Source of the DNA: Merismopedia glauca CCAP 1448/3
Lineage (GTDB): Bacteria > Cyanobacteriota > Cyanobacteriia > Cyanobacteriales > CCAP-1448
Reading direction: 5' to 3'
Length of the DNA stretch: 36,939 nt
Assembly: GCF_003003775.1 (NCBI RefSeq)
Contig: NZ_PVWJ01000048.1
Coordinates: 1 to 36,939 of the forward strand
Below the pieces are notes generated by a model. It did not search any database. It worked only from the letters and a program-made list of their open reading frames with translations, and was not told where the DNA came from. This document shows, piece by piece, positions 18,365 to 25,467 of the stretch (within the stretch, counting starts at the first letter, position 1; each line of letters starts with the position of its first letter). The translations under genes and the position numbers were made by a program.

Positions 18365-20272
18365 ATGCACCTTAGTGAAATCACACATCCCAACCAGTTG
18401 CACGGTCTTTCGATCCGCCAGCTAGAGCAAATAGCTAGACAAATCCGCGAAAAGCATTTGCAAACAGTAGCTACTAGTGGCGGTCATTTAGGGCCGGGAC
18501 TGGGTGTAGTTGAACTCACACTGGCACTTTATCAAACGTTAGATTTGGATCGAGATAAGGTGATTTGGGACGTGGGTCACCAAGCTTATCCCCATAAGTT
18601 AATTACAGGCAGATACGATCGCTTTAACACTCTGCGCCAGAAAAATGGCGTAGCGGGCTACCTAAAAAGGTGTGAAAGTAAGTTCGATCATTTTGGGGCT
18701 GGACACGCTTCTACCAGTATTTCTGCGGGACTGGGCATGGCTTTAGCCCGCGACCTCAAGGGGGATAATTTTAAAGTAGTAGCAGTAATCGGAGACGGTG
18801 CTTTGACTGGGGGGATGGCTCTAGAAGCCATTAACCATGCAGGTCATTTACCCAAAACGAACCTAATGGTGGTGCTGAACGATAACGAAATGTCGATTTC
18901 TCCCAATGTCGGTGCAATTTCTCGTTATCTCAATAAGATGCGCCTCAGCCCACCTGTCCAGTTCCTCTCGGATAATTTGGGAGAACAGGTGAAAAACCTA
19001 CCATTCGTTGGGGAAGCTTTATCTCCTGAAGTCCAAAGGGTAAAAGAGGGGATGAAGCGCCTAGCTGTGTCTAAAGTTGGAGCAGTATTTGAAGAATTGG
19101 GCTTTACCTACATGGGGCCTGTCGATGGTCACAACCTAGAAGAGTTGATTTCTACTTTTAAGGAAGCCCACAAGATTACAGGACCAGTTTTAGTACACGT
19201 AGCCACGACTAAAGGCAAAGGGTATGCTATAGCCGAAAAAGACCAAGTTGGCTACCACGCCCAAAATCCCTTTGACCTAGCTAGCGGTAAAGCTATTCCC
19301 TCTACTAAACCCAAACCTCCTAGCTACTCCAAAGTTTTTACTGAAACTTTGATTAAGTTAGCCGAAGATAACCCAAAAATAGTTGCGATTACGGCAGCGA
19401 TGGCGACTGGGACTGGATTGGATAAATTCCAAGCTAAATTACCAAAACAATATGTAGATGTAGGTATTGCCGAGCAACACGCGGTGACTCTGGCAGCAGG
19501 ACTAGCTTGCGAAGGAATGCGCCCTGTAGCTACAATTTATTCCACCTTTTTGCAAAGAGGTTACGACCAAATCGTTCACGATGTCTGCATTCAAAACCTA
19601 CCTGTCTTCTTCTGCTTAGATCGGGCTGGTGTGGTAGGAGCAGACGGTCCAACTCACCAAGGGATGTATGATATTGCCTATCTGCGCTGTTTGCCAAATA
19701 TGGTGTTGATGGCTCCCAAAGATGAAGCAGAACTGCAACGGATGGTAGCGACAGGGATTAGCCATACATCAGGTCCTATAGCCTTGCGCTATCCTCGCGG
19801 TAATGGTTATGGAGCCACATTAATGGCGGAAGGATGGGAGCCTTTACCAATTGGGAAAGCAGAAATTCTGCGTCATGGCGATGATATTTTGTTCTTAGCC
19901 TACGGATCGATGGTTTATCCGGCAATGCAAGCGGCTGAATTGCTTAGCGAACACGGGATTGAAGCTACAGTGATTAATGCGCGCTTTGCTAAACCTTTGG
20001 ATGAAGAGTTGATTTTACCTCTGATGCAAAAGATTGGTAAAGTTGTCACTTTGGAAGAAGGTTGTCTCATAGGTGGTTTTGGTGCTGCGATCGCCGAAGC
20101 TGCGATCGATGCTAATATTTCTGCTCAAGTGAAACGACTTGGCGTACCCGATATTTTGGTAGATCATGCTACTCCAGATGAATCTTTAAGAGATTTAGGT
20201 TTGACAAGTGCTAAGATTGCCGACGAAGTTCGTCAGAATTTTTTCAGTCAACAACCTTCTGTGGTTAGTTAG
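18365..20272 (+). CDS. dxs: 1-deoxy-D-xylulose-5-phosphate synthase Dxs
   Basis: A 635-residue thiamine-diphosphate enzyme that condenses pyruvate and glyceraldehyde-3-phosphate, the first step of the MEP pathway to isoprenoids, carotenoids and the phytol of chlorophyll. Motifs in order: [32 protein letters not shown], the ThDP/Mg site [18 protein letters not shown] with [11 protein letters not shown], the catalytic glutamate in [18 protein letters not shown], and [18 protein letters not shown]. The transketolase C-terminal domain follows. The start has GGGGGAAGAAG just upstream. Full length and single copy in this window. A hairpin terminator follows between it and the convergent DUF2993 gene. 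Confidence 0.97.
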
Positions 20273-21281: not shown

Positions 21282-23747
21282 ATGTATGTATATATCAGTT
21301 CCGAAGTTAAAAATAATCATCCACAACAGTTGAAGGCAATTGAAGATATGCAAAAACGAATTGAAGGAGGAGATCCTTTACTCTTCGGTTTGCTCTTCAG
21401 TCCTCGCTTTCCACTTTGGATTAAAAAAATCTGGGGAGGTTGGCGACTGATTGCGACGCTGATTTCAGTTGAGGACGAGCAAATATTGTGTTGTACTCAT
21501 CTATTAACTAGGGGAGGTCATGATTATCGAAATTTTCTAGATAATCATGAAATATGGGGACATAACAATATTACGCTTAATCAAGAACAGTTGCGCCAAT
21601 GGTTACAAGAGCGTCAGCAGGTAAAACCTAGAGAAAAACTGGTCTTGCCCAACAAAGCCTGGGAGTGGTTACGCAAACCAGAACTTTTACAGCCCGAAAA
21701 TCGGACTATTTTTGAAAGTAAAGAGTGGGTAGAGCAGTGGAGCGATCGCCAGTCAGGCATTAACGATAATTGGTCAACCTTTCACCGAATAGTGGTACAT
21801 CTACTTGAAAATGATCGAAAAGACTACAAAATAGAAGACTACAAAATAGAAAAAACAATACAGGCACAAGTTAAAGTATGTATTGAACCTCAGACAAATT
21901 GCGCGATCGTCTATAGCAAAGTCAATCCTAGCGATGCCCCAGAACGCGAAATCTGGTTTTTGCTCAAAGCATTCACCAAACGTCCCACACAGACCGAAAT
22001 TGCTCAACTAGGTCACAGATTGGGCTTATTTGGTGCGGCTGTCAATCGAGACTTGTTCGCACAGCCCGTTACAGCAGATAATTTAGCGCGGTTTGCACGT
22101 CGTTCTTATCCCGATTATTTAGTTTACGACCCTGAAATTTGGCACAGTTTAGAGGAGGAGACTGAAGCAAATTTGGCACTTTCTGGAGAAGAAGAAGAAT
22201 TATTGCATAATATGCAGTTTCCGGCTTTTATCAATGGACGGGCTGGCAGTGGCAAATCGACTATGCTGCACTATGCGTTTGCCTATTATGCAGATCTCTA
22301 CCTCAAACAAGTTCATGAGTCGGGAAATGAATCCTTACGCCCCTTGTTTTTAACATACAGCGATCGCCTGACCAATCGAGCGCGGGATGTCGTCAAACAG
22401 ATTTTAATCAGTCACGTTCAATATATAGCTAATATTAGAACTTATTTGCAACCAGACAGCCTCAACCTTCTTGATGGATGTTTTGAGTCTTTCCAAAGCT
22501 TTTTGTTGCAGCAGTTACCTCCTGAAGATGTTGACCTTTTTAAGAAGGAAAATTATGTCTCCTTCCACCGCTTCAAACAACTGTATCAGCACTCTTTTCC
22601 CAATCCTAGACACAACGCTGAAATTTGTTGGCACGCTATTCGTACCTATATCAAAGGCTTCGACTTCACGGAACGCGGAGGAGAGTTGATAGATATAGAA
22701 GAGTATCGTAATGAATTATGCCAAGCTGACAAAAGCATTGCTGACGATGTTTTTGCAGACATCTATCGTACTGTCTGGGACTGGTATCAAAAGCTCCAGC
22801 GAGAACAGCACTACTGGGACGACCAAGATTTAGTGCGGAAAGTTTTGCAAAATATGGTAGAAGGTGATGGATTGCAACATGGCTATGCTGCTATCTTCTG
22901 CGATGAGGCACAAGATTTCACTCGGCTTGAATTACAGCTAATTTTTCGGTTATCGATGTGGTCGCAATACCGCTTGTTGCCACCTATTCAAAGTTTACCT
23001 TTCGCCTTTGCTGGCGATCCAATGCAGACTTTAAATCCTACAGGGTTTGACTGGAACCAAATTCGTGCTGCTTTTTACGAGCGCATCTTAATTCCTATCG
23101 ATCCAGAAAATCAAATTGGTTTGCGCGATCGCACCATGTTGCGAGATTTGCAGCAAAACTATCGCTCGACTAGGGGAATCGTTCGGTTTAGTAACGTGGT
23201 TCATCTGTGGCGACGAATTTTGTTTAACCTCAATAATTTGAATCCGCAAACTCCTTGGTGGAAAAGCGAAGGTGTCTGTCCTCCCCTCAAGGGAATTATA
23301 GACGGCAATATTGGCAATATTACAGTAACGGAACTGCATAGTATTGCTAATGGAGATGCTATCTTCATCCTCCCTTGCAATGATGGTGGAGAATTAGCTT
23401 TTTTGCGCGATTTACCGAAAATGAAGCAAATATTTCCAGAGATAGAAAAAAATGAAATTCCCCTCCGAGTTTACAGTTCTGTTGCTGTCAAAGGGATGGA
23501 ATTTTCTCCGGTAGTTGTCTGCGGGTTTGGCGAATACTTTGCTAGGGAATTTGAAGATAGCTGTTTAGAAAACTTACAGGTAGATTCCAAAAATCTCAAG
23601 TTACAGTACTTTCTCAACAAGCTTTATGTAGCCCTTAGTCGCTCGACGAGAATCTTGGGCATAATTCAATACGGTTCAGTTAAAGAAAAAGTTGTTAGTT
23701 TGGCTAACGAGAGATGTGGCATTCAGCCCATCATCCAGAGACAATAA
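21282..23747 (+). CDS. Superfamily 1 (UvrD-like) helicase, C-terminally truncated by a MITE
   Basis: The 5' part of a very large gene. Residues 1-310 form an N-terminal region of unknown fold. The helicase motor has Walker A GRAGSGKST (319-327), motif II IFCDEAQDF (from 538), motif III FAGDPMQTLNPTGF (578 area), motif IV LQQNYRSTRG (626 area), motif V VKGMEFSPVVVCGFG (736 area) and motif VI LYVALSRSTRI (782 area). All core motifs are present. Native sequence ends at residue 795; the last 26 residues (QYGSVKEKV onward) are encoded by an inserted MITE, which supplies the stop. The original protein ran about 1357 residues, continuing with DTERGDRALWQAAS in another frame. Relatives are large UvrD-type proteins with helical-repeat tails, somewhat like TRANK1. 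The truncated motor could still fold; whether it works is unknown. Confidence 0.85.
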   Translation: MYVYISSEVKNNHPQQLKAIEDMQKRIEGGDPLLFGLLFSPRFPLWIKKIWGGWRLIATLISVEDEQILCCTHLLTRGGHDYRNFLDNHEIWGHNNITLNQEQLRQWLQERQQVKPREKLVLPNKAWEWLRKPELLQPENRTIFESKEWVEQWSDRQSGINDNWSTFHRIVVHLLENDRKDYKIEDYKIEKTIQAQVKVCIEPQTNCAIVYSKVNPSDAPEREIWFLLKAFTKRPTQTEIAQLGHRLGLFGAAVNRDLFAQPVTADNLARFARRSYPDYLVYDPEIWHSLEEETEANLALSGEEEELLHNMQFPAFINGRAGSGKSTMLHYAFAYYADLYLKQVHESGNESLRPLFLTYSDRLTNRARDVVKQILISHVQYIANIRTYLQPDSLNLLDGCFESFQSFLLQQLPPEDVDLFKKENYVSFHRFKQLYQHSFPNPRHNAEICWHAIRTYIKGFDFTERGGELIDIEEYRNELCQADKSIADDVFADIYRTVWDWYQKLQREQHYWDDQDLVRKVLQNMVEGDGLQHGYAAIFCDEAQDFTRLELQLIFRLSMWSQYRLLPPIQSLPFAFAGDPMQTLNPTGFDWNQIRAAFYERILIPIDPENQIGLRDRTMLRDLQQNYRSTRGIVRFSNVVHLWRRILFNLNNLNPQTPWWKSEGVCPPLKGIIDGNIGNITVTELHSIANGDAIFILPCNDGGELAFLRDLPKMKQIFPEIEKNEIPLRVYSSVAVKGMEFSPVVVCGFGEYFAREFEDSCLENLQVDSKNLKLQYFLNKLYVALSRSTRILGIIQYGSVKEKVVSLANERCGIQPIIQRQ
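21822..21851 (+). repeat. 15-bp perfect tandem duplication in the helicase N-terminal region
   Basis: The 15-mer GACTACAAAATAGAA occurs twice in a row and encodes DYKIE twice. It stays in frame and falls in the unconserved N-terminal part, consistent with recent slippage. Confidence 0.8.
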
Positions 23748-23768
23748 AAGCTTATCTGAACTGTATTG
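23667..23768. mobile_element. 102-bp MITE inserted in the helicase gene
   Basis: Terminal inverted repeats: CAATACGGTTCAGTTAA at 23667-23683, and at 23752-23768 its complement with 15 of 17 positions matching. Perfect 10-bp direct repeats, GGGCATAATT, flank it at 23657-23666 and 23769-23778. Removing the element and one repeat (112 bp) joins ...RILGII to DTERGDRALWQ in a single frame. A 10-bp duplication suits IS4-group transposases, so it is probably moved in trans by such an enzyme. Confidence 0.92.
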
Positions 23769-25467
23769 GGGCATAATTGATACTGAAAGAGGCGATCGCG
23801 CTTTATGGCAAGCTGCAAGTCCACAAAATCTTACCAAATTGGTAAAGCAACTGCCCGATAGTGAACTCCCAACTTGGCAATCTCAAGTAGAAGGGCTGTC
23901 AGATAGCTTCCATATGGGTATATTTCAAGATAGCAAGCCCTTGGAGCTAGCTCGAACCTTTATGCGAGAGGGTTTAAATACCAAAGATCGACGTTTTTTA
24001 GAAACAGCCGCCTATTATTACGATCGCGCTCAGCAATTTAATGAAGCCAAATACTGCCGCAGCTACTTGCTACGCCTTAATGGCAAATTGCGCGAAGCTG
24101 GCGAAGGATTTATGGAAATCGAGCATTTAGCAGATCGTTCCTTAAATCATCAACAGGATGCTTGGGAATGTTTTTTCTTAGGGCACCATTGGGAAAATAT
24201 GTGGCAATGGTGTGATCGCTATCCCGAAGCACCCGCAGCCAAATGGGAGCCAGTTGCAGCTTTTATGGCACAAATAAACCCCAAGCTTGATGCAAGTGAA
24301 ACTGTAGCTGTTCTGGCTGAATTCACGGTTTATTTACCCTCAATACTCCCCAGTAAATGCGATCACTCGATTTGGCAAGCGGTATTTGAATGCTATCTTC
24401 AGGGTATTGAAGAGGCGCTTTTAGCAGTTGCAAGTCTCTCGGCAAAACATCTTGACTCTTGGGAAAAAACCCTAATTAAGATTGCCGAAACAGGTTTCCA
24501 GGGCGATCGCACTTTGGCACTTGCGGCTAGTTGTGCTTATCGAGATTTTCGTTGCCAAGACGCAGTAACTTTATGGGACAAATGTGAAGATCGATCCTAT
24601 CAAGAACATAGATCCTATTTTTCTGCCAAAGGAATGTTCGCGTCCGTACCAGAAAATGTTCGCTGGTTCAATCGCGCTCAGCAGCCAGATCATATTGTAG
24701 CTATTTGGCAAAATGAAAAACATCAACACCAAATGGCTGTATGGCAACCCGTTTTAGCAGAGCTACGTCAGGCACTGGAAAAAACCGAAAATTACCGAGA
24801 TCTGGTCGCAATAGACATAAAACTAAATCAATGGGTGCGTGTCGTTCGCCTAGTTGCATCTCGCCTTCAAGTGCAAGATCCGGCTTTTGATGCCACTTTC
24901 CGTCTCCAGATCCTCAATCGCTTAACTAGCGATCCGCTATTTAACCCTCAATCGATTCAAAATGAAGCCAAACAACTCCAAATCTCAGTTCAGACAGCAC
25001 GAGAAGCTATATCTAATTTTGTAGTTGAAACTACCCAACTTAAAGCCTGGGAAGCCGATCTCAAGAATGTGGAATATATCGGTCAATTTCTAGCTTCGAT
25101 AGGCGAGTTGGTGCCTGCTTTAGGGTTCTATAAACGCTTTCGCGGTGCAGCAGATCTACAGCTATGTGGGTTAGCGCGATCGCGATGGAGCCAGATTAAG
25201 CACCAACAAGCAGAGCATTCTCAAAAAAGAGGAAAAATTGAACTTGCCAGCAGACAAAGACAAGATGCAGAGCGTACAATTGAATCTTGGTGGTGCAGTC
25301 CTAAATTATATGTTCTGCCAAAAACTACCTCAAAAGAAATTGATCGAGCATTATTTGCGGCTTTAAGTCAAAAAATTACTAATCGCTTGCAGAAATTGTC
25401 ACCCATCGAACTCAAACAGGTGTATGACTACATCAATTCGCTAGAGTCTCAGAGGGATCTTTTTTAG
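23769..25467 (+). pseudogene. C-terminal part of the split helicase gene, helical-repeat region
   Basis: About 565 native residues continuing the helicase frame after the MITE. They begin GIIDTERGDRALWQAASPQN, which in intact relatives directly follows helicase motif VI. The region is Trp-, Ala- and Leu-rich and looks like helical repeats of the TPR kind, for example FLETAAYYYDRAQQFNEAKY and LVPALGFYKRFRGAADLQLC. No catalytic motif is seen. An open frame starts at a TTG (23692) inside the MITE, but no ATG or good ribosome-binding site serves it, so separate translation is doubtful. The sequence itself has no stops or frameshifts after the insertion, so the damage is probably recent. It likely served protein-protein contacts. 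Confidence 0.8.

Follow-up and report, generated by a model that had tools for sequence, protein, structure and literature searches.

A 102-bp element that splits a UvrD/Rep-like helicase gene in Merismopedia glauca: a MITE with a probable partner in the IS4 family

The window analysed here is a stretch of 36,939 nucleotides that corresponds to contig C48 of the Merismopedia glauca CCAP 1448/3 genome, a 5.2-Mb draft in 254 contigs in which repeats are collapsed. Within this window a helicase gene is divided by a short segment bounded by repeats, which raises the question of what the segment is, how it came to lie there and what became of the gene. Our reading, to which we assign a probability of about 0.93, is that it is a non-autonomous type I MITE moved by the transposase of a resident insertion sequence (IS) of subgroup IS4, and that its insertion split the helicase gene.

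Structure of the element and the divided gene

The element spans positions 23667-23768 and is flanked on both sides by perfect copies of GGGCATAATT (Table 1), in agreement with the original prediction of a 102-bp MITE with a perfect 10-bp target duplication. It opens with CAATACGGTTCAGTTAA and closes with the reverse complement of CAATACAGTTCAGATAA, and the two agree at 15 of 17 positions, so that the predicted terminal inverted repeats are likewise present in the sequence. The ends of the element fold onto each other (z = -4.5 compared with shuffles), a pairing that is expected of terminal repeats. No gene lies within the 102 bp, as had been stated for the transposase, and a comparison with Rfam returned no family for the MITE sequence.

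Table 1 Features of the split locus in the window, and copies of the second MITE family elsewhere in the host genome (G000)
Feature	Position	Strand	Basis or remark
Upstream part of split UvrD/Rep-like helicase gene	21282-23747	+	PF00580, E 6.6e-07
Left target-site duplication GGGCATAATT	23657-23666	.	exact repeat at 23769-23778
Left terminal inverted repeat CAATACGGTTCAGTTAA	23667-23683	+	agrees with each end of the IS4-family IS at 17/17 positions
MITE interior, without coding gene	23684-23751	+	short blastn against the IS; Rfam
TAA stop codon from the element	23745-23747	+	sequence
Right terminal inverted repeat, inward CAATACAGTTCAGATAA	23752-23768	-	15/17
Right target-site duplication GGGCATAATT	23769-23778	.	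exact repeat of the left one
Downstream part of split gene, 562 codons	23779-25467	+	homology to the C-terminal region of orthologues without the insert
Second MITE family, copy L045/L057	C9:49167-49269		
Second MITE family, copy L056	C32:35106-35208		

The upstream helicase frame encodes 821 aa and ends at the TAA within the MITE, confirming that the element supplies the stop codon of the upstream piece. When 112 bp are left out, a single open frame of 1,357 codons without internal stop is obtained, reading RILGIIDTERGDRALWQ, and the proposed restoration of one frame thus holds. Assignment of the gene as a helicase rests on the PF00580 match listed in Table 1. Elsewhere in the order the orthologous helicase genes are undivided, with open frames of 1,118-1,619 codons, so that the original description of a giant helicase gene split by the element stands as regards the split, while "giant" is only relative. 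The 112 bp are absent from these orthologues, as the prediction implied: in at least eight genomes the matches to the first and the second part meet on neighbouring bases, and the empty-site orthologues include those of G010, G038, G004, G012, G013, G028, G005 and G007. The orthologous protein at the empty site reads, for example, KLYVAASRATERLFIIDTETGEHNLW, and the window with the insert removed reads KLYVALSRSTRILGIIDTERGDRALW, an alignment that places the insertion shortly after helicase motif VI, which on our reading of the sequence is probably YVAxSR. The full-length helicase is most likely inactive. PADLOC assigned the helicase to no defence family. Its neighbours between positions 18365 and 27223 are housekeeping genes, encoding a DXP synthase, an LmeA-like protein, a pseudouridine synthase and a RodZ-like protein.

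Genomic copies and the probable partner insertion sequence

The host genome contains seven copies of the MITE (on contigs C48, C5, C17, C109, C19, C4 and C3), identical across all 102 bp. In the orientation of the element their duplications are GGGCATAATT, CGTCATAGCT, GGCTATATTG, GGCGATCGAT, CAATATAAAC, ACTTATTGCT and ATCTATATGT, all seven exact, all seven 10 bp long and each different in sequence, a combination that is not due to chance. The identity of the copies together with their intact duplications indicates recent movement and supports the view that the insertion into the helicase gene is recent. Long genes are broken by three of the seven copies. At the C17 site the joined flanks encode a 577-residue kinase-FGE-sulfatase protein and at the C109 site an MscS channel of 484 residues that carries a cNMP-binding domain; the element interrupts both genes, whose joined empty sites are long open frames with good domain matches. 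The duplication of the C5 copy (L010, G000:C5, around position 2007), AGCTATGACG, includes what is probably the ATG of a small protein resembling a four-helix bundle; an ATG is thereby retained on either side of the MITE. For the C19, C4 and C3 sites no long frame spanning the insertion was found. Among 60 relatives the MITE is present in its own genome only, and across 391 genomes of the order it has elsewhere only partial or approximately 70% matches; moreover, plasmids and phages yielded no DNA similar to it and viral contigs no MITE-like patterns.

The 17-bp left end of the MITE recurs at 17 further places in the host genome, 16 of them about 60 bp from a contig tip and one, on C14, at 800 bp; they mark the ends of a longer repeat, which the assembler failed to cross. 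Ten of these junctions continue inwards with GCTTCAAAG... and seven with GGCTATGCAG..., representing ten left-end and seven right-end junctions of an IS that occupies some 10 or more sites. For four pairs of junctions the 10-bp flanks agree exactly and are oriented as a target duplication would be. Apart from C14:1-816 no sizeable copy is present in the draft; this piece comprises the first 816 bp of one IS, is frame-shifted and ends at the contig end, and when translated it shows matches to the IS4 N-terminal domain and to an IS4 transposase model. Since the assembly has collapsed the IS copies, an intact transposase gene cannot be read in the host draft, and of the host's own transposase only the N-terminal part is legible.

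In Tolypothrix campylonemoides we found IS relatives of 1486 bp whose 17-bp ends are both perfect and which are flanked by 10-bp duplications, and near-identical ISs, likewise with perfect ends and 10-bp duplications, occur in Nostoc. The 816-bp host piece is 85% identical to one 1486-bp relative, which encodes a 420-residue frame with Nterm_IS4 (PF13006) and DDE_Tnp_1 (PF01609) domains and whose transposase scores above the cut-off of NF033592; the YREK motif of the Tolypothrix IS copy reads YHQRWEVENTIDELK. Subgroup IS4 is described by ends of the form -AATR--------WTW----, a size of 1400-1650 bp and a duplication of 10-13 bp (PMC2266710, Table 1). With its ends (CAATACGGTTCAGTTAA), 1486 bp, 10-bp duplication, DDE domain and YREK residues the partner IS resembles this subgroup in each respect and, judged by sequence, fits the IS4 family, subgroup IS4, which narrows the IS4-group enzyme proposed earlier. 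The original prediction also called for other genomic copies and for a full IS with the same ends, and the seven MITE copies, the IS junctions and the 1486-bp relatives answer to this.

Unlike the ISs of subgroup IS4, the MITE is 102 bp long, has no transposase and borrows their ends only. It is short and multicopy, with inverted repeats, 10-bp duplications and no transposase gene, and its ends match an IS of its own genome at 17 of 17 positions at one end and 15 of 17 at the other. It thereby resembles the type I MITEs of bacteria (PMC3542288, PMC10969869), which are short and geneless, have the ends of resident ISs as well as duplications, and also occur in several identical copies, some of them within genes. 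For the MITEs of Anabaena sp. 90, in contrast, no IS with matching ends could be found, and they were therefore assigned to type II (PMC3542288), whereas the host MITE has such a partner. Nezha and other named cyanobacterial MITEs are reported to be active in work cited in PMC10969869, and as far as that description goes Nezha is comparable to the host MITE as a cyanobacterial MITE. The 17-bp end sequence was not found in the literature searched. Overall, the element is a real, recently active MITE with an IS partner and is ordinary in kind.

Target preference, mobilisation and competing explanations

Insertion targets were scored by comparing the centre of the duplication with TATA on both strands, with a threshold of 3 of 4. 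This threshold is reached by six of the seven MITE sites, all four sites of the resident IS and, for related ISs, by 11 of 12, compared with 6.5% of background 10-mers, and the target preference NNNTATANNN is common to MITE and IS. According to the base at position 12 of the terminal repeat, elements can be divided into A-type and G-type; in 143 out of 148 short elements (L126-L294) this position is equal at both ends. Among insertions with perfect duplications, a score of at least 3 was obtained for 46 out of 53 A-type but only 2 out of 42 G-type cases, where the counts refer to insertions, not independent lineages, and the division was made after seeing the first data, which the larger confirming set includes. 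The host genome itself contains a second, G-type MITE family of 103 bp, with two identical copies (Table 1) and 10-bp duplications GGGGCGGGTT and ATTGTCGCCC; its interior has a close relative in a genome of another taxonomic family (G106) and weaker kinship to elements in G189 and G138 and to the MITE of the window.

Most likely, the MITE was mobilised in trans by the IS transposase. The DDE transposase of the resident IS would recognise the 17-bp ends of the MITE, synapse the two ends and excise the element, a cut-and-paste chemistry inferred by analogy with the family. Insertion would then proceed at NNNTATANNN-like sites by a 10-bp staggered cut, which gap fill-in would turn into 10-bp direct repeats. 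One such insertion after motif VI would have split the helicase gene of approximately 1,357 codons and given its first part a stop, with loss of the full-length helicase as the probable outcome.

Alternatively, the MITE may have been moved by another transposase, either one since lost or that of an IS with similar ends, with the resident IS as a bystander. The left end of the MITE, identical to that of the resident IS, argues against this, as do the 10-bp duplication that the two have in common, their shared TATA-like target preference, which differs from that of the G-type elements, and the seven identical copies, which point to recent activity; the right end is less easily reconciled with the resident IS, since two of its 17 positions deviate from the IS end and it reads GATAA, whereas all 25 full ISs examined have T at position 14 (GTTAA) at both ends. 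In short blastn searches the MITE interior showed no similarity to the partner IS beyond the ends, so that the MITE is not a simple deletion copy of it, and for the G-type sister family, despite its two copies, no G-type IS was found in the host genome. Taken together, we consider a bystander role unlikely and mobilisation by the resident subgroup-IS4 transposase the better explanation.

Still less probable is a functional split, in which the gene would now specify two proteins, with the element supplying a stop for the first and, close by, a restart for the other. The first product retains its motor motifs, including motif VI, and acquires 26 element-encoded residues in place of the lost C-terminal 562, and the downstream frame is open backwards into the MITE as far as 23692, which would make coupled translation possible; yet the insert contains no promoter-like site or Rfam element, the two-gene form was not seen in relatives with both helicase parts, and identical insertions lie at other loci without such a design. 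That the repeat is a product of chance or assembly can be practically dismissed despite the fragmented draft with its collapsed repeats, as 102 bp is below the common short read length and seven different flanks with exact duplications, together with uninterrupted orthologues, refute it.

Related short elements and their lengths across Cyanobacteriales

A scan of the 391 genomes of the order identified elements with these ends in 59 genomes at 87-117 bp and in 54 at 118-147 bp, with no matches to a reversed control pattern. Perfect 10-bp duplications accompany 96 out of 147 short-element insertions for which both flanks are available, and one genome, G168, is exceptionally rich, with 83 and 46 short elements. 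Between families the interiors mostly show no relationship, and many of them harbour dispersed palindromic repeats. At position 14, 69 of the 148 short elements have A (GATAA) at one end and T at the other, and none has A at both. One family (L217 and relatives in G364, G296 and G383) has lengths of 111, 118, 125 and 132, steps that are explained by a 7-bp GGGGAAA-like interior repeat.

Between 87 and 117 bp the lengths cluster near 92-95, 99-104 and 111-114, a spacing that may possibly reflect about one helical turn (10.5-bp periodicity). A phasing prediction for 118-148 bp was fixed before that range was searched; 34 out of 46 lengths fell inside the predicted windows against 67% expected, the windows being too wide for a sharp test, and the fixed-phase test on this held-out range was not significant (u about 1.0-1.2). 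A pooled test of 23 clusters gave p = 0.0002 but includes the data that prompted the idea. IS50 is a member of the IS4 family, and artificial IS50 transposons of similar size reportedly show helical phasing. We therefore offer only as a speculative suggestion, with the odds rather against it, that across Cyanobacteriales many unrelated interiors are packaged between one IS4-type end pair, as elements of 90-143 bp, under the constraint of transpososome assembly, visible in preferred lengths that differ by roughly a helical turn and in the recurrent pairing of a consensus with an altered (GATAA) end, which full ISs lack.

In conclusion, the ends, the length of the duplication and the target preference together connect this cyanobacterial MITE with the IS that probably mobilises it; no such connection had been available for the Anabaena sp. 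90 MITEs (PMC3542288). The A-type and G-type end classes with their differing targets make it directly testable which transposase moves which MITE, and short elements in which one end is altered are widespread and provide natural data on the minimum length of an IS4-type transposon. If the proposed constraint on length is true, the geometry of the synaptic complex would be recorded in the lengths that MITEs have in nature.
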